Shown here one piece after another: positions 766-7,399 of a stretch of DNA of 7,399 nt. The notes beneath the pieces were generated by a model. The model had not been told where the DNA came from and ran no database searches. It saw nothing but the letters and a program-made list of their open reading frames with translations. Position numbers and translations under genes: made by a program. Location: contig QHBQ01000428.1 of NCBI GenBank assembly GCA_003243865.1, positions 1 to 7,399 of the forward strand, written 5' to 3'. Source of the stretch: Candidatus Chloroheliales bacterium. GTDB taxonomy: Bacteria; Chloroflexota; Chloroflexia; QHBQ01. How positions within the stretch are numbered: position 1 is the first letter of the stretch; every line of letters starts with the position of its first letter.

Positions 766-3030
766 ATGGCTGAAGTATATCGTTTTGAAACTGAAGTCGG
801 CGGGCGTAAGCTCAGTATCGAGGCAGGCCGCCTGGCCGAGCAGGCCGACGGCGCGGTGCTGATTAGCTACGGCGACACCGTGATGCTGGCGACCGCGGTT
901 GGCTCGCACTCGCCGCGACCCGGCGTGGACTTCTTCCCCCTCACCGTCGAGTATCAGGAGAAGATGTATGCCGCAGGCAAGTTCCCCGGCGGCTTCATCA
1001 AGCGTGAAAACCGCCCCAGCGATAATGCCATCCTGATTGATCGCCTCACCGACCGCCCGCTGCGCCCGCTCTTCCCCAAGGGCTACATGAACGAAGTGCA
1101 GCTGATGAACATCGTCCTCAGCATAGACAATGAGAACGAGCCAGAGATCCTCAGCATCATCGGCAGCAGCGCCGCCCTTTGCATCTCTGACATCCCCTTC
1201 CAGGGGCCAGTCGGTGCGGCCAAGGTTGGCTTCATCAACAACGACTTCATCCTCAACCCCAGCCGCGAGGAGATGGAGCGCAGCCTGCTCGACCTGAGCG
1301 TGGCTGGCACCGAGACGGCGGTGCTGATGGTGGAGGCGGGCGCGCATGAGTTGCCCGAAGCGACCCTGCTGGAAGCGGTCATGTTCGGCCACGCCGGACT
1401 GCAGGCCAGCATCCAGCTACAGAAGCAGCTAATCGAGGCCTGCGCCAAGCCGAAGCGCGAGTTCACCCCGCCAGCGAAGGACACCTCGTTCGAGGAGGAG
1501 ATCAAAGCCTGGCTGGGCAGCACGTTGACCGAAGCGGTCAACAATCCGGTCAAGCAGGATCGCGAGGCGGCCACTGATGCGGTCAAGGTCGCGGTGGTGG
1601 GCCAGTTCATCCAGGGCGTCGCCGAAGCCGACCTGCCCGAACGGATGAAGCAAATCGAGAGCGCCTGGTATAACATCCTGAAGGAAGAGGTGCGCAACGC
1701 CATCCTCGATCGCGACAGCCGCCCCGACGGGCGCAGCCACGCGGAGATCCGCCCGATCAGCACCGAAGTGGGCGTGCTACCCCGCACCCACGGCACCGGG
1801 CTATTCACCCGCGGCCAGACCCAGGTGTTGAGCATTACCACGCTAGGCACCGGCGACGATGAGCAGAGCATTGATGGCCTCGGCCCCGAGACAAGCAAGC
1901 GTTACGTCCACCAGTACAACTTCCCGCCTTTCAGCACCGGCGAAACCAAGATGGTGCGTGGGCCGTCGCGTCGCGACATCGGTCACGGCCACCTGGCCGA
2001 GCGCTCGCTGCTGGCGGTGCTTCCTGATGAGGAAACCTTCCCTTACGCCATTCGCGTGGTCAGCGAGGTGCTGAGCAGCAACGGCTCAAGCTCGATGGGC
2101 AGCGTCTGCGGCAGCAGCATGAGCCTGATGGACGCGGGCGTGCCAATCAGTGCGCCAGTGGCGGGCGTGGCGATGGGCCTGGTTACCAGCAAGGACGGCA
2201 GCAAGCATCAGGTGCTGACCGACATCCAGGGCATCGAGGACTCGCTGGGCGACATGGACTTCAAGGTGGCTGGCACCGAGAAGGGCGTCACCGGCCTGCA
2301 GATGGACATCAAGATGCTCGGCCTCAGCTATGAGGTGATGGAGGAAGCGTTTGCCCAGGCCCGCGAGGGTCGCATCTTCATCCTCGGCAAGATGGCGGAG
2401 AGCATCACCCAGCCGCGCCCCGACATCTCGCCCTATGCCCCGCGCATCATCGCCATTAAGATCAACCCGGAGAAGATCGGCGCGCTGATCGGCCCCGGCG
2501 GCAAGAACATCCGCAGCATCACCGAGGACACTGGCTGCAAGATTGACATCGAAGAAGACGGCACCGTGCGCATCGCCAGCACCGACGGCGAAGCGGCCAA
2601 GCGGGCAGTCGCCCGCATCGAGGCGGTGACGAAGGAAGTCGAGGTCGGCCAGGTCTATCTCGGTAAGGTAGTACGCATCATGCCCTACGGCGCGTTCGTA
2701 CAAATCCTGCCGGGCAAGGATGGCATGGTTCACGTCAGCGAACTGGCCGATTACGATGTGCGCAACGTCGAGGATGTGGTCAGCATGGGCGACGAAATCA
2801 ACGTGATGGTGACGGACATTGACCGGATGGGCAAGGTCAGCCTCAGCCGCCGCGCGGTGTTGACCGGCCAGATGCCCGCCCCCCGCGCCGAGCGTGGTGG
2901 CGGCGACCGCGGCCCCCGCCCTAGTGGTGGCGACCGCGATCGTGGTCCCCGCCCCGGCGGTGACCGCCCCGGCTGGGGTGGTGGCAACGGCAGCGGTGGT
3001 GGCGATCGGGATCGCGGTCCACGCCGCTAG
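766..3030 (+). CDS. pnp: Polyribonucleotide nucleotidyltransferase (PNPase)
   Basis: PNPase is a trimeric 3'-5' phosphorolytic exoribonuclease that releases nucleoside diphosphates from RNA and can also add 3' tails in reverse; it acts in cytoplasmic mRNA decay. The 754-residue protein shows the standard order: first RNase PH domain (about 10-145), helical linker (about 240-315), second RNase PH domain (about 320-545), KH domain (about 555-620, GxxG in IGPGGKNI at 575-582) and S1 domain (about 625-697). The catalytic second PH domain keeps SSNGSSSMGSVCG and EDSLGDMDF, whose D492 and D498 match the metal-binding aspartates. Residues about 705-754 are a low-complexity tail with repeated GGDRxRGPRP units, making it longer than the usual ~700 residues. 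The ATG at 766 has AAGGAG 10 nt upstream. It follows rpsO, as in many bacteria. Confidence 0.98.
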   Translation: MAEVYRFETEVGGRKLSIEAGRLAEQADGAVLISYGDTVMLATAVGSHSPRPGVDFFPLTVEYQEKMYAAGKFPGGFIKRENRPSDNAILIDRLTDRPLRPLFPKGYMNEVQLMNIVLSIDNENEPEILSIIGSSAALCISDIPFQGPVGAAKVGFINNDFILNPSREEMERSLLDLSVAGTETAVLMVEAGAHELPEATLLEAVMFGHAGLQASIQLQKQLIEACAKPKREFTPPAKDTSFEEEIKAWLGSTLTEAVNNPVKQDREAATDAVKVAVVGQFIQGVAEADLPERMKQIESAWYNILKEEVRNAILDRDSRPDGRSHAEIRPISTEVGVLPRTHGTGLFTRGQTQVLSITTLGTGDDEQSIDGLGPETSKRYVHQYNFPPFSTGETKMVRGPSRRDIGHGHLAERSLLAVLPDEETFPYAIRVVSEVLSSNGSSSMGSVCGSSMSLMDAGVPISAPVAGVAMGLVTSKDGSKHQVLTDIQGIEDSLGDMDFKVAGTEKGVTGLQMDIKMLGLSYEVMEEAFAQAREGRIFILGKMAESITQPRPDISPYAPRIIAIKINPEKIGALIGPGGKNIRSITEDTGCKIDIEEDGTVRIASTDGEAAKRAVARIEAVTKEVEVGQVYLGKVVRIMPYGAFVQILPGKDGMVHVSELADYDVRNVEDVVSMGDEINVMVTDIDRMGKVSLSRRAVLTGQMPAPRAERGGGDRGPRPSGGDRDRGPRPGGDRPGWGGGNGSGGGDRDRGPRR

Positions 3031-3052
3031 TCAATCTCTATAAGTGTATGGA

Positions 3053-3085
3053 TGCGCCTCTGAAGCTGGTAGCTTCAGAGGCGCA
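3053..3085 (+). terminator. Strong hairpin after pnp
   Basis: A perfect 15-bp stem (TGCGCCTCTGAAGCT, 3053-3067, pairing with 3071-3085) with a GGT loop begins 22 bp after the pnp stop. No T-run follows (CTGCCTTGCC), so termination may be weak or factor-dependent; it could instead protect the mRNA 3' end. It separates pnp from the independent promoter at 3132. Confidence 0.7.
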
Positions 3086-3131
3086 CTGCCTTGCCTGCCG
3101 CTAGAAGCGTAGCTCATCGTCGAGGGTGGGA

Positions 3132-3160
3132 TTGACAGAAACGTGGCTACAATATATAAT
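3132..3160 (+). promoter_or_regulatory. Perfect-consensus sigma70-type promoter of the toxin-antitoxin module
   Basis: TTGACA (3132-3137) and TATAAT (3155-3160) are exact -35 and -10 consensus hexamers separated by the optimal 17 bp. Expected transcription start is near 3167, about 24 nt before the antitoxin ATG. Such a strong promoter suits a toxin-antitoxin operon that is normally held down by antitoxin or complex binding, but I see no obvious long operator palindrome overlapping it. Confidence 0.85.
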
Positions 3161-3190
3161 TCAAGCATAATAACCTCAAGGGAGGCGAAC

Positions 3191-3502
3191 ATGGCTGATT
3201 ATACCATCACCCTGAACCTGAACGATGAGCAACGCAGTGTGCTAGATGAAGCGCGAGGCAACACTGATATCGCCGACTACATTCTGAACGCCGCTGTTAA
3301 AGTGGCGCAGCGCAAATCCACCCGCCGTGACCGACTGATGAGCGTTGCCGAGCTGACTCCTGACCTGACCCCCGAAGACCATATGAGCCTGGTTGAGGCA
3401 GCAAGGCAGCCGGGACGCACCTTGACCCTGGAAGAGGTGAGAGTCAAGCTGGATAATTTGTTTGTCCAAGCGAGAGCAAAAGCAGCGAGGGAAGACGAGT
3501 GA
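3191..3502 (+). CDS. Putative antitoxin of a type II toxin-antitoxin pair
   Basis: This 103-residue acidic/basic mixed protein starts at the ATG at 3191, with a strong Shine-Dalgarno (GGGAGG) 5 nt upstream. A longer in-frame start (GTG, 3143) lies between the promoter hexamers and cannot be used from that promoter. The N-terminus (ADYTITLNLNDEQRSVLDEA) reads as a beta strand followed by a helix, a possible ribbon-helix-helix-like DNA-binding fold, with the segment about 25-45 helical. The C-terminal half (LTLEEVRVKLDNLFVQARAKAAREDE) is a charged helix of the kind antitoxins use to cover a toxin. I do not recognise the exact family. The antitoxin role is inferred from size, the position before a RelE/ParE-type gene and the translational overlap of 4 nt. 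Confidence 0.65.
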   Translation: MADYTITLNLNDEQRSVLDEARGNTDIADYILNAAVKVAQRKSTRRDRLMSVAELTPDLTPEDHMSLVEAARQPGRTLTLEEVRVKLDNLFVQARAKAAREDE

Positions 3503-3849
3503 TAGTCCGCGTGCTCGATGAAGTGTACGATGCCATTCAAGAGGCGGCGCTATACTCAATTCAACGCTTCGGCATAGACGCAGCAGAAAAGTTGTCAAAT
3601 CGTCTCTTCGAGAGCCTAAAGCAAACAACCCAGCGCGACGGCATCCCCGTCCTTGACCTACCACGTAATTTCCGCTACTTTGTCATTAAACCCTATCGGC
3701 TGTTCTTCTACCGCGACGAGCAGGCTGGTGAAGCATTGGTGTACCTGCTTCGGCACACGGCCCGCGCCCCCTTGCCCTCAAAGGAGCATCGGCGGCTAGC
3801 AGATACGGCAAGGCGAAAAGCGCAACCGATAAACCAAAATGGACACTAA
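3499..3849 (+). CDS. RelE/ParE-superfamily toxin
   Basis: This 116-residue protein begins at a GTG (3499-3501) that overlaps the TGA of the upstream gene in a GTGA junction, which indicates translational coupling. The layout matches the RelE/ParE fold: an N-terminal strand (IVRVLDEVYDAIQEAALY), two helices (QRFGIDAAEKLSNRLFESLKQTT, residues about 22-44), then LPRNFRYFVIKPYRLFFYRD (about 54-73) and the closing strand EALVYLLRHTARAP (78-91). Family members are either ribosome-dependent mRNA interferases (RelE) or gyrase inhibitors (ParE). The FGxxAA helix start and the terminal RHTAR-like motif lean toward ParE, but sequence alone does not decide the target. The C-terminus (about 92-116) is a basic tail. 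It forms an operon with the preceding antitoxin candidate. Confidence 0.82.
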   Translation: MIVRVLDEVYDAIQEAALYSIQRFGIDAAEKLSNRLFESLKQTTQRDGIPVLDLPRNFRYFVIKPYRLFFYRDEQAGEALVYLLRHTARAPLPSKEHRRLADTARRKAQPINQNGH

Positions 3850-3850
3850 G

Positions 3851-3882
3851 AAAAGGGCTGGCGCGATTGCGTCAGTCCTTTT
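3851..3882 (+). terminator. Intrinsic terminator after the toxin gene, possibly bidirectional
   Basis: A 14-bp stem (AAAAGGGCTGGCGC with GCGTCAGTCCTTTT, two G-T wobbles, GATT loop) starts 2 bp after the toxin stop codon. The base of the stem is A4 on one side and T4 on the other, continuing TTTTGTT, so it could stop transcription in either direction. It closes the toxin-antitoxin cassette. Confidence 0.75.
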
Positions 3883-3931
3883 GTTACAGCATTGTAAGAT
3901 TTGTAGCGCATCCTTGCGCCCGCTTCTGTGG

Positions 3932-3937
3932 TAGAAT
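3932..3937 (+). promoter_or_regulatory. Candidate -10 element for the response regulator gene
   Basis: TAGAAT (3932-3937), within GTAGAATATA, is a good -10 match in otherwise GC-rich DNA. No convincing -35 sits at the right distance. If used, transcription starts near 3943-3945, which falls on the ATG at 3943 and leaves a leader of about 39 nt before the GTG at 3982. Confidence 0.4.
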
Positions 3938-3981
3938 ATAGCATGATTACCCTAACCCAACAGCAAGAAGGAGCAGCAGCG

Positions 3982-4749
3982 GTGGCGGGCGAAACAATCC
4001 TGGTGGTGGATGACGAGCCGAACATCCTCGAAGTGGTCAGTGCCTACCTGCGCAGCGAGGGCTACCATGTGGTGGTGGCGGCGGACGGCGAGGAGGCGCT
4101 GGCCCAGGCCGACACCCATCAGCCCGACCTGCTGGTACTCGATGTGATGCTGCCGCGGCTCGACGGGCTGGAGGTCTGTCGCCGGGTGCGGGCGCGGCGG
4201 CCCACCCCCATCATCATGCTCTCGGCCAGAGGCGAGGAGACCGACAAGCTGATCGGCCTCGAATTCGGCGCCGACGACTACCTGACCAAGCCGTTCAGTC
4301 CGCGCGAGCTTGTCGCCAGGGTCAAGGCGGTGTTGCGCCGCAGCCAGCAGCCAACCCCAGCCGCAAAGCCGGGCGAGGGTGAGGCGCTCCGCTTCCCCGG
4401 CCTGCGCATCAATCCCCGCGCCCACAGCGTCACCGTGAGCGGGCGCGAGGTGGAGCTAACCGTCAAGGAGTTCGAGTTGCTGCTGTTCCTGGCCCGCAGC
4501 CCCGGCGAGGTGTTCACCCGCGAACAGTTGCTCAACAAGGTCTGGGAGTACACCTACTACGGCGATGTCAGCACCGTGACGGTGCATATCCGCCGTCTGC
4601 GCGAGAAGATCGAGGCAGACCCCGCCCAGCCCCGCTACATCAAGACGGTCTGGGGGGTGGGGTACAAGTTTGAGGCGGGGAGTGATGAAGGGTTAGCTGC
4701 ACGAACCCTCCCCTACCCCAGTAGGCTAATCCTTACCCCCAAATGCTGA
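3982..4749 (+). CDS. OmpR/PhoB-family response regulator
   Basis: This is a two-component transcription factor of 255 residues. The receiver domain (about 4-118) has the acidic pair D10/D11, phosphoacceptor D54 in LLVLDVMLP, S81 and K103 in DDYLTKPFS. A proline/alanine linker leads to a winged-helix DNA-binding domain (about 130-230) with ELTVKEFELLLFLARSPGEV and the closing VWGVGYKFE. I chose the GTG at 3982 because GAAGGAG (3967-3973) lies 8 nt before it and the protein then begins MAGETILVVDDE, as in the family. Longer in-frame starts exist at 3943 (ATG) and 3928 (GTG) but lack such a site and lie at or upstream of the likely transcription start. After GYKFE, where relatives usually end, there is a 25-residue tail (AGSDEGLAARTLPYPSR...) with repeat-like coding sequence. 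The likely partner is the histidine kinase at 5060. Confidence 0.94.
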   Translation: MAGETILVVDDEPNILEVVSAYLRSEGYHVVVAADGEEALAQADTHQPDLLVLDVMLPRLDGLEVCRRVRARRPTPIIMLSARGEETDKLIGLEFGADDYLTKPFSPRELVARVKAVLRRSQQPTPAAKPGEGEALRFPGLRINPRAHSVTVSGREVELTVKEFELLLFLARSPGEVFTREQLLNKVWEYTYYGDVSTVTVHIRRLREKIEADPAQPRYIKTVWGVGYKFEAGSDEGLAARTLPYPSRLILTPKC

Positions 4750-4785
4750 ATGGCTAGCAGGCACAAGATTGTGAGTGGCTGAATA

Positions 4786-4935
4786 GTTCTGGGGGTTGGG
4801 GGCGCAGCCCCGTCGTTGCAGCGCATCAATGCGGCGGATAAGCTATTTTGGTCAAGGGTATAGGTGGGGCGAAGACGGCTTACGATGAGCGTTAAAATAG
4901 GGCAGCGCCGGGGCTACGCCCCCAGCCCCCGGAAC
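4786..4935. repeat. MITE-like element with 34-bp inverted repeats between regulator and kinase genes
   Basis: The left arm (4786-4819, GTTCTGGGGGTTGGGGGCG...) and the right arm (4902-4935) are inverted copies over 34 bp with five mismatches. A further inner pair, CTATTTT (4843-4849) / AAAATAG (4894-4900), allows the whole 150 bp to fold back. There is no coding capacity of note. The GGGGGTTGGGGG core is shared with the element at 238-378. It fills much of the 310-bp gap 4750-5059, in which I see no gene. Confidence 0.65.
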
Positions 4936-5017
4936 TCGTCAAGCCGCCGATTATCTTGCACCGTCCTGCCACTTCGACACTTATGCGTAAGGATCAGCCT
5001 GGTGACGCAGCAGCAAT

Positions 5018-5040
5018 GTAGGGGCGGGCGGCACTCGCCC
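5018..5040. repeat. Short dispersed palindrome before the kinase gene
   Basis: TGTAGGGGCG followed by GGCGGCACT and CGCCC gives a 5-bp inverted repeat (5022-5026 / 5036-5040). It matches the layout of the unit at 413-437. It ends about 5 bp before the kinase ribosome-binding site, so in mRNA it would form a small hairpin close to the start codon. Confidence 0.45.
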
Positions 5041-5059
5041 TGGGCAGGAAGGATTGACG

Positions 5060-6352
5060 ATGGCGGAGCTAGAGCAGGTGAACACAAGTAAGCGGGGATT
5101 GAGCTATGGCTGGTTCGCCTTTGGCGGGCTGCTGGTGGCGCTGGTGGCGGCGATTGTCTACGCGGTGCTGCTGATGTCGCCGCCCGCCGAAGACATTCGC
5201 GATATGATTACCTTCCTGCTCATCTCCGGCAGCCTTTCGCTGGTGATTGGCTACCTCGGCTTCCGCCGCTTCGGGCTGGGGTCGAGCCTGCCCAGCCTGC
5301 GGCTCAAAATCATGGTCATCTACATCGCTGGGCTAGCGATTGCCTTCGTCAACGTGGTGGTCACTGCCGCGCTGATGTTCCTCAGCGAACATGACCTCAA
5401 GCTGCTCAGTGTGCTGCTCTTCTTCGCGCTAGTCATTTCACTGTTCTCCGCCTACTTTCTGGCCGAGAGCATGAGCCGCTCAGTGCGGCTGGTGATGAAC
5501 GCGGCAGGACGGTTGGCCGAGGGCAAGGCCGACGAGCGGGTGCCAGTGCAGTCGGCGGACGAGTTGGGGCGGTTGGCGAGCGCCTTCAACCAGATGGCCG
5601 ACCGGCTGGCTGAGGCATCAGCGGCCCAGCAGCGGGTGGAAAACGCGCGGCGCGAACTGGTCGCCGCCGTGTCGCATGACCTGCGCACCCCGCTGGCGAG
5701 CATCCGCGCGATGGTCGAGGCGGTCAACGATGGCGTGGTGCGCGACCCCGAAACCGTGCATCGCTACCTGGTCAGCGTGCAGCACGAGGCGCAGCGGCTG
5801 GGGGCGCTGATTGACGACCTGTTCGAGCTATCGCAAATTGAGGCGGGCGCGCTGAAGCTGCAATTGGAGCGCGCCTCGCTGGAGGATGTCGTCTCCGACA
5901 CGTTGGAGAGCATGGACGCGCAGGCGCGGCTGAAGGGCGTGGCCCTGTCGGGCAAGGTGGAGGGAACGCTGCCGCCCGTCTACGTGGACACCCGCAAGTT
6001 CCAGCGGGTGCTGTACAACCTGGTGCAGAACGCTATTCGCCACACCCCGGCGGACGGCGCGGTGACGCTGATCGCCCGCGACTGCGGCAACGAGGTGGAG
6101 GTGCAGGTGGCCGACAGCGGCGAGGGTATTGCCGAGCGCGACCTGCCGCACATCTTCGACCGCTTCTATCGCGGCGAGCCGTCGCGTAGCCGCGACACCG
6201 GCGGCGCGGGCCTCGGCCTGGCAATCGCACGCGGCATCATCGAGGCGCACGGCGGGCGTATCTGGGTTGAGAGCACGCTGCACGAGGGATCAACCTTTTT
6301 GTTCAGTCTCCCGCGTAAGGAGAAAGCGTTTTTACCGATGGTGGTGTTTTAG
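5060..6352 (+). CDS. Membrane sensor histidine kinase (HAMP, HisKA, HATPase_c)
   Basis: This 430-residue kinase would sense a signal at the membrane, autophosphorylate and pass the phosphate to the upstream response regulator. Four hydrophobic segments (about 17-39, 50-68, 82-107, 114-135) with only short connections mean there is almost no extracytoplasmic sensor domain, so sensing is probably within the membrane or via partners. A HAMP domain follows (about 136-190, with ADELGRLASAFNQMADRL). The HisKA helix carries phosphoacceptor H206 in VSHDLRTPLASI. The ATP-binding domain (about 308-418) has N324 in LVQNAIRHTP, DSGEGI (352-357), FDRFYR (366-371) and GGAGLGLAIA. The ATG at 5060 has AAGGA 6 nt upstream; the TTG at 5054 abuts that site and is unlikely. 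The last dozen residues (KEKAFLPMVVF) are family-atypical. The stop is within about 10 bp of the IscB element's first hairpin. Confidence 0.95.
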   Translation: MAELEQVNTSKRGLSYGWFAFGGLLVALVAAIVYAVLLMSPPAEDIRDMITFLLISGSLSLVIGYLGFRRFGLGSSLPSLRLKIMVIYIAGLAIAFVNVVVTAALMFLSEHDLKLLSVLLFFALVISLFSAYFLAESMSRSVRLVMNAAGRLAEGKADERVPVQSADELGRLASAFNQMADRLAEASAAQQRVENARRELVAAVSHDLRTPLASIRAMVEAVNDGVVRDPETVHRYLVSVQHEAQRLGALIDDLFELSQIEAGALKLQLERASLEDVVSDTLESMDAQARLKGVALSGKVEGTLPPVYVDTRKFQRVLYNLVQNAIRHTPADGAVTLIARDCGNEVEVQVADSGEGIAERDLPHIFDRFYRGEPSRSRDTGGAGLGLAIARGIIEAHGGRIWVESTLHEGSTFLFSLPRKEKAFLPMVVF

Positions 6353-6360
6353 TCATGTAC
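6341..6360 (+). other. Predicted guide segment of the omega RNA (flank-derived)
   Basis: IscB omega RNAs carry their guide at the 5' end, just upstream of the conserved scaffold, and in natural loci it comes from DNA flanking the element's left end. If the scaffold starts at the hairpin at 6361, the guide here would be the ~16-20 nt GTGGTGTTTTAGTCATGTAC, which spans the kinase stop codon. The exact boundary is inference. Confidence 0.4.
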
Positions 6361-6637
6361 CCCCGCATTGAATGCGGGGCTTGTGAGGAGCGTTCGCGTT
6401 GCTCACAGGCCCGAGACATGAGCAGACCCAGGCTTGAAACATAGCCTCCGTTATCGGGAAGTGTTGCAGAACCTACCTTCGGGTGCTTCACCAGCCTGAA
6501 GCTCTAGAACTGCTCTGTTAAACAGGTGGAACGGGTGAAGCCAGTGCGGAGCAGAAAGTACCGCCCGGTAACTTCGTCGAGGTGAGCATTACCCGCGCAA
6601 GCGGAGGCCCGGCAACGGGCACAAGAAGGAACGACAC
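6361..6637 (+). ncRNA. Candidate omega RNA (HEARO-type) upstream of iscB
   Basis: The ~275 nt between the kinase and iscB encode no protein but are dense in helices. They include CCCCGCAT/ATGCGGGG (6361-6368 with 6372-6379, loop TGA) and TGTGAG/CTCACA (6382-6387 with 6402-6407). They also include GCTTCACC/GGTGAAGC (6485-6492 with 6534-6541) and a UUCG-capped stem near 6475-6484. Two consecutive GCAA-tetraloop hairpins follow, CCGC/GCGG (6593-6604) and GCCCG/CGGGC (6607-6620). The 3' end runs into the iscB Shine-Dalgarno. HEARO RNAs are known to lie directly upstream of iscB, overlap or abut its start, and direct the nuclease to DNA. I assign this by position and structure, not by a covariance search. 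Confidence 0.65.
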
Positions 6638-7205
6638 ATGTCAAAAGTCTTTGTCATCGATACCAAGCAGCAGCCCCTTGAACCCGTGCATCCGGGGCGG
6701 GCGCGGCGGTTGCTCGCGGAGGGCAAAGCCGCCGTCTTCAGGCGCTACCCCTTTGTGATCATTCTCAAGCGGCAGGTCGAGACCCCTGCTCCTGCGCCAG
6801 TACGTCTGAAGATTGACCCTGGGGCCAGGACCACCGGACTCGCCCTCGTTGATGATGCGACAGGCGAAGTGGTGTGGGCGGCAGAACTCTCCCATCGGGG
6901 ATCTGAGGTCAGAGCAGCCCTGGAGACCCGCCGACGGGTGCGCCGCGGCCGCAGACACCGCCGCACCAGATATCGAGCGCCTCGCTTTGCCAATCGTCGC
7001 CGGCAGAAGGGGTGGCTCCCCCCATCCCTGCTGAGCCGCGTTGAAAATATCCTCTCCTGGGTCAAGCGGCTGTGCCGGCTGTGCGCCATCACCGCCCTTT
7101 CCCAGGAGGTGGTCCGATTCGACCTGCAAAAGCTGGAGAACCCGGAGATCAGCGGCGTGCAGTACCAACAAGGCGATCTGTTCGGCTATGAAGTGCGCGA
7201 ATCTC
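6638..7205 (+). CDS. iscB: IscB RNA-guided nuclease, N-terminal part interrupted by an intron
   Basis: IscB is an RNA-guided DNA endonuclease and the evolutionary relative of Cas9. Visible parts, in order, are the PLMP domain (about 1-50, KVFVIDTKQQPLEPVHPGRARRLL), RuvC-I with catalytic D60 in LKIDPGARTTGLALVD and an Arg-rich bridge helix (about 88-123, RRRVRRGRRHRRTRYRAPRF). RuvC-II follows, with E157 in LSQEVVRFDLQKLENPEISGVQYQQG. Homology reaches GYEVRE (residue 188). Relatives continue with a short segment and the HNH domain, but here the frame enters GTGCGA at 7206, reads unrelated sequence and stops at 7301-7303 (221 codons). HNH, RuvC-III and the TAM-interacting part are absent from the window. 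The ATG has AAGGA 7 nt upstream. Without splicing the product would lack both complete nuclease sites; with splicing a full protein of typically 400-500 residues is possible. Confidence 0.85.
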
Positions 7206-7399
7206 GTGCGATGTGCCAATCGCTTATCTTGAGTGAGGAGCCTGAGAACTCCTCCAGGCCAGTGTCTAAGCCTGTCACCAACTTCTGCGTGCGTTCCCGG
7301 TAACGGGAGGGTGCGAAGCCAGAAGTAACGTCTAAGGGGATGCTTAGCCACAAGCAGAACCGGGCTAGGTGAAGAGCGGACGGGTGAACGTGAGTGAAC
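7206..7399 (+). mobile_element. Probable group II intron, 5' part, inserted in iscB
   Basis: Starting at GTGCGA (bacterial group II introns begin GUGYG), protein homology stops and helices nest in a domain I-like way. GAGGAG/CTCCTC (7234-7252) comes first. An outer stem pairs 7262-7271 with 7342-7351 (9 of 10 pairs) and encloses ACTTCTG/CAGAAGT (7281-7287 with 7320-7326). That stem in turn holds TCCCG/CGGGA capped by a GTAA tetraloop (7295-7308). The window ends before any reverse transcriptase ORF, domain V or 3' splice site. It lies in the same orientation as iscB, as needed for splicing to restore the frame. An alternative is a different structured insertion or a degenerate element end. 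Confidence 0.6.

Follow-up and report, generated by a model that had tools for sequence, protein, structure and literature searches.

The stretch of DNA analysed here (the window; 7399 bases) has the character of a Chloroflexota genome stretch and ends within an iscB gene, the nuclease gene of an RNA-guided OMEGA system. A HEARO omegaRNA lies directly upstream of the N-terminal half of this gene, and the last 194 bases of the window are the start of a group II intron. Judged from the sequence, it is nearly certain that the intron is nested in iscB on the coding strand, just before the HNH domain. A sequence-only reading of this DNA had proposed as much, and both an Rfam match and a complete homologous locus (L028, in genome G128) bear it out. 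The features concerned are the following.

6352..6592, + strand: scaffold of the HEARO omegaRNA, which serves IscB as guide RNA (Rfam RF02033: 116.5 bits against a cut-off of 83)
6638..7205, + strand: iscB 5' exon, 568 nt, that is 189 codons plus 1 nt (NCBIfam guided_IscB positions 1-185 of 314; site and phase as in L028)
6638..7303, + strand: open reading frame (ORF) without intron removal, 221 aa, no HNH domain (ORF list; proteins with like tails)
7199..7205, + strand: candidate intron-binding site 1 (IBS1), GAATCTC, expected to pair with exon-binding site 1 (EBS1) of the intron (its position equals that of GAATATT in L028, paired there with an EBS1 candidate)
7206..7399, + strand: beginning of a group II intron, covering the first part of domain I and ended by the window end (Rfam group-II-D1D4-7; 181/194 identical to the L028 intron)
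7294..7308 (approximate), + strand: domain I hairpin with a GUAA (GNRA) loop (Rfam alignment; fold)

Residues 4-188 of the ORF at 6638-7303 match NCBIfam guided_IscB (269.1 bits, cut-off 175), the match covering only positions 1-185 of the 314 in the profile, and Pfam RRXRR scores 242.6 bits. The gene thereby shows the N-terminal IscB half, which we take to comprise PLMP, RuvC-I and the bridge. As first read from the letters, IscB is intact through GYEVRE at codon 188 and homology ends there; the exon then closes with GAATCTC, one nucleotide into the expected Leu codon. The product of an unspliced message would be the truncated 221-residue protein without HNH that had been foreseen. Its last 32 residues are intron-coded, the first of them spanning the junction.

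The intron sets in at 7206 with GTGCGATG, and the GTGCGA motif noted there does mark its start: both this intron and that of L028 open with GTGCG, the GUGYG form of a group II intron 5' end. A covariance search, named beforehand as a check on the region, returned group-II-D1D4-7 at 7254-7339 on the + strand (43.4 bits, E 1.1e-6, cut-off 34), in keeping with the domain I fold of a mobile bacterial group II intron. The GNRA-capped hairpin described after the junction was recovered as well, with its GUAA loop at about 7294-7308. Phage records searched with 7190-7399 gave no match.

A complete homologous locus

We then sought relatives of 7200-7399 in 400 sampled Chloroflexota genomes. G128 carries two copies, with 92-93% identity across all 200 bases. 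The first lies in L028, where a whole intron is present within iscB.

2208-2414: HEARO
from 2436: iscB 5' exon
3007-5424: intron, 2418 nt
3638-5329: reverse transcriptase (RT) ORF of the intron, with domains RVT_N, RVT_1, GIIM and HNH
5347-5424: domains V-VI (Intron_gpII, 54.2 bits)

The L028 intron ends in GAC, and past it iscB resumes in frame with the HNH-bearing C-terminal half. When the exons are joined at GAATATT|TGCTGG, they encode a single IscB of 424 aa with its HNH part and no internal stop. The truncated IscB ORF of this locus is protein record P0037, named Dictyobacter vulcani. For the RT, the nearest solved relative by sequence is chain C of 6me0 ('Maturase reverse transcriptase', E 5.1e-119), which we take to be a T. 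elongatus group II intron; the insertion specificity of that RT-encoding intron presumably differs from that of the L028 intron.

The sequence-only reading had proposed to look downstream for an RT/maturase, a domain V hairpin, a 3' end of the form AY, and iscB resuming in frame with the HNH domain. All four are found in L028, whose intron ends in AC, and they fall outside the window itself. It had also pointed to EBS1 complementarity: a loop of the L028 intron is complementary to its own 5' exon, and the EBS1 of the window intron would lie beyond the window end. From this 93.3% identical relative, we infer that the window intron likewise has an RT, a domain V and an EBS1.

The second copy in G128 (L029, about 3007-5424 of contig C1) is 99.9% identical to the L028 intron and lies outside iscB, flanked by GAATATC|TGCTG. 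Such near identity suggests recent mobility.

The same site in diverged iscB genes

The window and L028 have iscB split at the identical nucleotide and in the same phase. Over the visible part, their introns are 93.3% identical (181/194 aligned bases), whereas the iscB exons are only 63.0% identical (39.7% at third codon positions) and the HEAROs 55.1%. With the intron so much closer than the exon and the HEARO, it was therefore not inherited together with iscB; on this comparison, it is by separate entry that the intron reached the same iscB site in the window and in L028. The shared junction also bears on whether the assembly could have joined an iscB contig to an unrelated intron repeat. 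A contig that ends in an element multi-copy elsewhere (two copies in G128) ends at a usual place for breaks, but an artefact would not be expected to reproduce the junction nucleotide and phase of L028, nor would protein records of other sources fit the same junction, and we regard this explanation as extremely improbable.

Those records comprise the best 120 of 1388 matches plus P0121, and fits were counted from protein ends, with DNA examined for the window, P0037 (L028) and one further locus (L061 of genome G356). Tails fitting an intron at the window's site occur in 15/121 records, the window included; the tails of five others are consistent with a position 8 nt downstream (site B), and those of two more with one at CAYC (site C). 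Besides the window, five records have a long tail. Their tails are 61-84% and their IscB exons 59-66% identical to those of the window, and among themselves the tails are 71-100% and the exons 64-76% identical. Two pairs run contrary to the trend of tails being closer than exons, namely P0004/P0015 (exon 76%, tail 74%) and P0001/P0015 (62% and 61%). With the P0005 tail as query, five records were matched, P0015 not among them.

Pairing between intron and exon was consistent with RNA-guided choice of this site. The L028 intron has an EBS1 candidate, GATATTC, at nt 305-311, and a stem predicted there places all but one of these seven bases in its loop. The candidate can pair fully with GAATATC, which flanks L029, and also, if one G-U pair is allowed, with GAATATT, which flanks the intron in the iscB of L028. 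Across seven distinct family members, the longest runs of pairing between each intron's EBS1 and its own IBS1 sum to 39, against a mean of 26.6 when partners are swapped, and 39 was reached in 2 of 5040 permutations, the true one included. Six of the seven pair over at least 5 contiguous bases (G-U allowed). The pairing in these relatives supports RNA-guided homing as the likely route of entry.

We note that intron-start-like DNA with 71-76% identity was also seen on plasmids (H2, H3, H5 and H6), the hosts being Candidatus Chlorohelix allophototropha, a Streptomyces and two Mycobacterium intracellulare records; the Chlorohelix plasmid copy has an annotated ltrA.

Introns elsewhere in iscB elements

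The IscB of locus L004 was used as query against 47 genomes of G128's class, with at most 36 candidates scored per genome. Matches at E <= 1e-10 were found in at least 32/47 genomes, three of these only at about 1e-11; HEARO matches were found in 32 (30 above cut-off) and group II domains V-VI in 26. Ten stretches were read first as split-locus candidates and 13 more were added. Some (L065-L069) turned out to be frame changes or contig ends and were set aside.

Introns were identified at three further positions in iscB. At site B, the intron of L061 starts with GTGCGCC and exits in frame at TTC|AAATGG; no RT was found in it, and its 3' end is TC. The site C intron (L060, genome G318) has RT-like matches and the atypical end GTTACG, and no junction at this site combined a kept frame with a GU start. 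Site D, near residue 273 of the L004 protein, holds an intron with an RT in L062 and L075 (genome G344) and in L063 and L064 (genome G276), with the atypical end CTGCG; the 5' exon of L062 contains a frame change. The ends at sites C and D being atypical, we make no claim of splicing for the introns there.

The omegaRNA is also a target. In L071 (1140-3790, G276), HEARO is interrupted by a 2416-nt intron that has its own RT; the insertion point is GATT|AAACAG. Left split, this HEARO reaches only 62.2 bits against a cut-off of 83; once its halves are joined, it aligns over its full length to an uninterrupted HEARO from that genome (167/211 aligned bases). Two loci of G276, L070 and L072, combine an omegaRNA intron of this type with a site D intron in iscB; they are 99.6% identical over 3.7 kb, and the domains V-VI of their site D intron score 37.4 bits, below the cut-off of 40. 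Furthermore, in G344 a group II intron separates HEARO from the start codon of iscB (L073, 990-3441; L073/L062), in addition to a site D intron. In a Microcoleaceae metagenome-assembled genome, a 770-nt group II intron (L011, 5093-5862) containing no ORF of at least 90 aa sits inside an apparent HEARO, identified by eye from its two halves, the split form not being scored by Rfam; iscB is intact downstream. In two loci of G356 (L076 and L077), domains V-VI run up to the 5' portion of a HEARO match whose score is below the cut-off of 83 in both (82.5 and 71.9 bits), and no 5' exon was found for either.

The RTs of the site D and omegaRNA introns are distant from that of L028 (41% and 37% identity), and more than one intron lineage is therefore involved. 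It is quite possible, although we put it somewhat below an even chance, that both the omegaRNA and the iscB of one OMEGA system (L070/L072) are split by separate introns, each of which would need to be spliced out before RNA-guided cutting, and that homing sites in iscB elements have evolved in several lineages of introns.

Frequency was assessed in six of the 47 genomes (G276, G318, G128, G344, G297 and G350), chosen after split iscB genes had been seen in several. Of their 117 domain V-VI matches, 106 are above the Rfam cut-off; 11 of the 117 (8 of the 106) lie inside iscB elements on the same strand, seven in the ORF, three in HEARO and one between the two. At 1650 nt each, iscB elements make up 0.15% of the sequence, and 0.18 matches would be expected. 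The excess persists when the insertions are collapsed to five distinct ones, with the denominator not likewise collapsed, and it is inflated by the choice of genomes and by the copying of whole elements. Counting loci instead, eight of about 50 bear an intron, seven of these in the ORF, and three carry two. The count of loci was made by hand; it takes in fragments as well as relatives of as little as about 31% identity, and leaves out small HNH-only matches.

Cyanobacteria were surveyed with 291 sampled genomes, at most five IscB candidates being scored in each. IscB was found at E <= 1e-30 in 33 genomes, and among these candidates no iscB was clearly interrupted by a gap of intron size on a single contig; genome G673 has its two iscB halves on separate contigs.

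Several further loci are recorded here as observations. L074 (867-1760, G344) has a HEARO and, about 540 nt further on, group II domains V-VI; that stretch gave no match to iscB. A Terriglobia locus (L013, 6001) has a 276-aa iscB with an in-frame gap from about residue 82 to past the HNH, its upstream HEARO being intact. Viral contigs yielded two IscB relatives (L016 and L017).

Probable splicing and its alternatives

The best overall explanation, and in our view a probable one, is that a retrohoming group II intron inserted in iscB is spliced from the mRNA, with production of the nuclease thereby preserved. An intron encoding its own RT would have entered the coding strand shortly before the HNH domain, within the conserved stretch GYEVREYLLEKW, one nucleotide into a Leu codon. 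To judge from the relatives, its RNA would locate the site by base pairing between the EBS1 loop and the end of the 5' exon. Splicing of the mRNA would rejoin the Leu codon and yield full-length IscB; unspliced mRNA would give the 221-residue protein, which would lack HNH and RuvC-III. Such an intron could reside in a mobile element at little cost and spread to the same site of other iscB genes. That it splices and restores IscB seems likely from the arrangement of L028, and we infer further that spliced IscB would be active and that the window intron is complete.

A number of points weigh against this interpretation. The window shows the first 194 nt of the intron, and the RT, domains II-VI, EBS1 and 3' exon would lie beyond its end at 7399. 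Folding energy for 7206-7399 is weak evidence and not significant by itself (z -1.71; 14/200 shuffles fold as well or better); what carries the case for the intron is the covariance model together with the complete intron of L028, which is 93.3% identical. Relatives of the intron start occur in 7/400 Chloroflexota genomes and only those in G128 are close. The exon-intron junction pattern was found in 4/400, of which only the G128 match is iscB; in the other three, the upstream translations are not IscB, and the pattern alone is therefore not specific. As regards pairing, the EBS1 loops were picked by eye from the alignment with the exons already known, one of the seven members (L022) does not pair, and two others (L015 and L024) lack GTGCG at the intron start, their boundaries having been placed by means of the alignment. 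Finally, the IBS1 of the window, GAATCTC, is one base off GAATATC and two off GAATATT. Its codon 7202-7204, adjoining the splice site, is TCT (Ser), where nine of the ten relatives examined have Tyr and the tenth Phe. This codon changes the IBS1 and may point to drift or to an altered EBS1; unless the EBS1 of the window differs too, these differences could impair splicing.

The same differences fit the possibility that the intron splices poorly or never, the insertion having inactivated a dispensable mobile gene of which the 221-aa ORF is a dead remnant. The atypical ends of other iscB introns (sites B, C and D) and the frame change in the L062 5' exon point the same way. L028 speaks against it, with an exact in-frame junction, a full-length IscB on joining, and a GTGCG start, domains V-VI, RT and EBS1-IBS1 pairing all in one intron, although the near identity of L028 and L029 could mean that this insertion is too recent for selection to have preserved the exons. 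Since the same site has also been used repeatedly across diverged iscB genes, we consider a dead insertion unlikely, and favour the spliced, retrohoming intron.

An intron of this kind might also have been co-opted as a regulated switch, with splicing efficiency (through temperature, magnesium or maturase level) timing nuclease production. A regulatory role is possible, the layout being what supports it: unspliced mRNA would give a protein without HNH. Experimental precedent comes from Chaetomium thermophilum: a group IIA1 intron that interrupts the ORF of a homing endonuclease there has served to modulate expression by attenuating it (PMC4801052). In that case too an endonuclease ORF is interrupted and nuclease synthesis requires splicing, but the host gene is not an RNA-guided nuclease. 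The scattered presence of recognised introns across the iscB loci of the six genomes, the variety of introns at varied sites and their separate arrival at the same site resemble parasitism more than a maintained regulator, and a co-opted switch appears to us improbable, a good deal more so than a dead insertion.

Group II introns in IS200-family elements are already known (PMC2882425), whereas hosts of the iscB/omegaRNA kind appear to be unreported: the accessible portions of the open-licence literature, PMC9581776 included, yielded no description of a group II intron within iscB or HEARO/omegaRNA. In Thermosynechococcus elongatus, the site that family F4 introns occupy is a conserved one in ISEL1, a member of the IS200 family, and the authors describe insertion into other mobile elements as a route of proliferation and discuss retrohoming after EBS divergence (PMC2882425). 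The two cases share a group II intron lodged in an IS200-type mobile element, at a site that is conserved. Here the host gene is the RNA-guided nuclease itself, split in frame before HNH, and in relatives the omegaRNA is the host. More generally, bacterial group II introns are mostly outside housekeeping genes and many lie amid mobile DNA (PMC4424553), and Ktedonobacter racemifer carries 34 RT genes in which RT, maturase and HNH domains occur together (PMC3236041). IStrons, which are group I introns joined to insertion sequences, similarly combine a self-splicing ribozyme with an IS605- or IS607-type element (PMC4227781). They form one composite with the element, in contrast to the independent group II retroelement nested in a nuclease gene described here.

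If splicing is real, iscB would be a splicing-gated RNA-guided nuclease gene, and the omegaRNA a structured guide RNA that matures through excision of an intron. IscB is regarded as the ancestor of Cas9, and to our knowledge its natural control is poorly known. Natural iscB alleles that need removal of a mobile ribozyme, together with split guide RNAs, would offer test cases for splicing as a limit on an RNA-guided nuclease, for the nesting of an autonomous RNA element inside another mobile element, and for the evolution of group II intron homing sites in conserved codons or RNA motifs.

Upstream of the split gene, the window reads, in order, the end of rpsO, pnp, a possible toxin-antitoxin pair, a response regulator, a histidine kinase, HEARO and iscB. 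The guide of an IscB omegaRNA is formed by the bases just upstream of the scaffold. The HEARO start falls on the stop codon of the histidine kinase (6336-6352), and the bases just upstream therefore derive from the 3' end of the kinase gene. The possible toxin-antitoxin pair consists of two small overlapping ORFs (3143-3849), the second with a weak ParE-toxin match (20.3 bits, below the cut-off of 23). Among the 120 matches listed for PNPase, the named relatives are mostly Chloroflexi/Chloroflexia at about 62-68% identity, and three further relatives stand at 88-92%.
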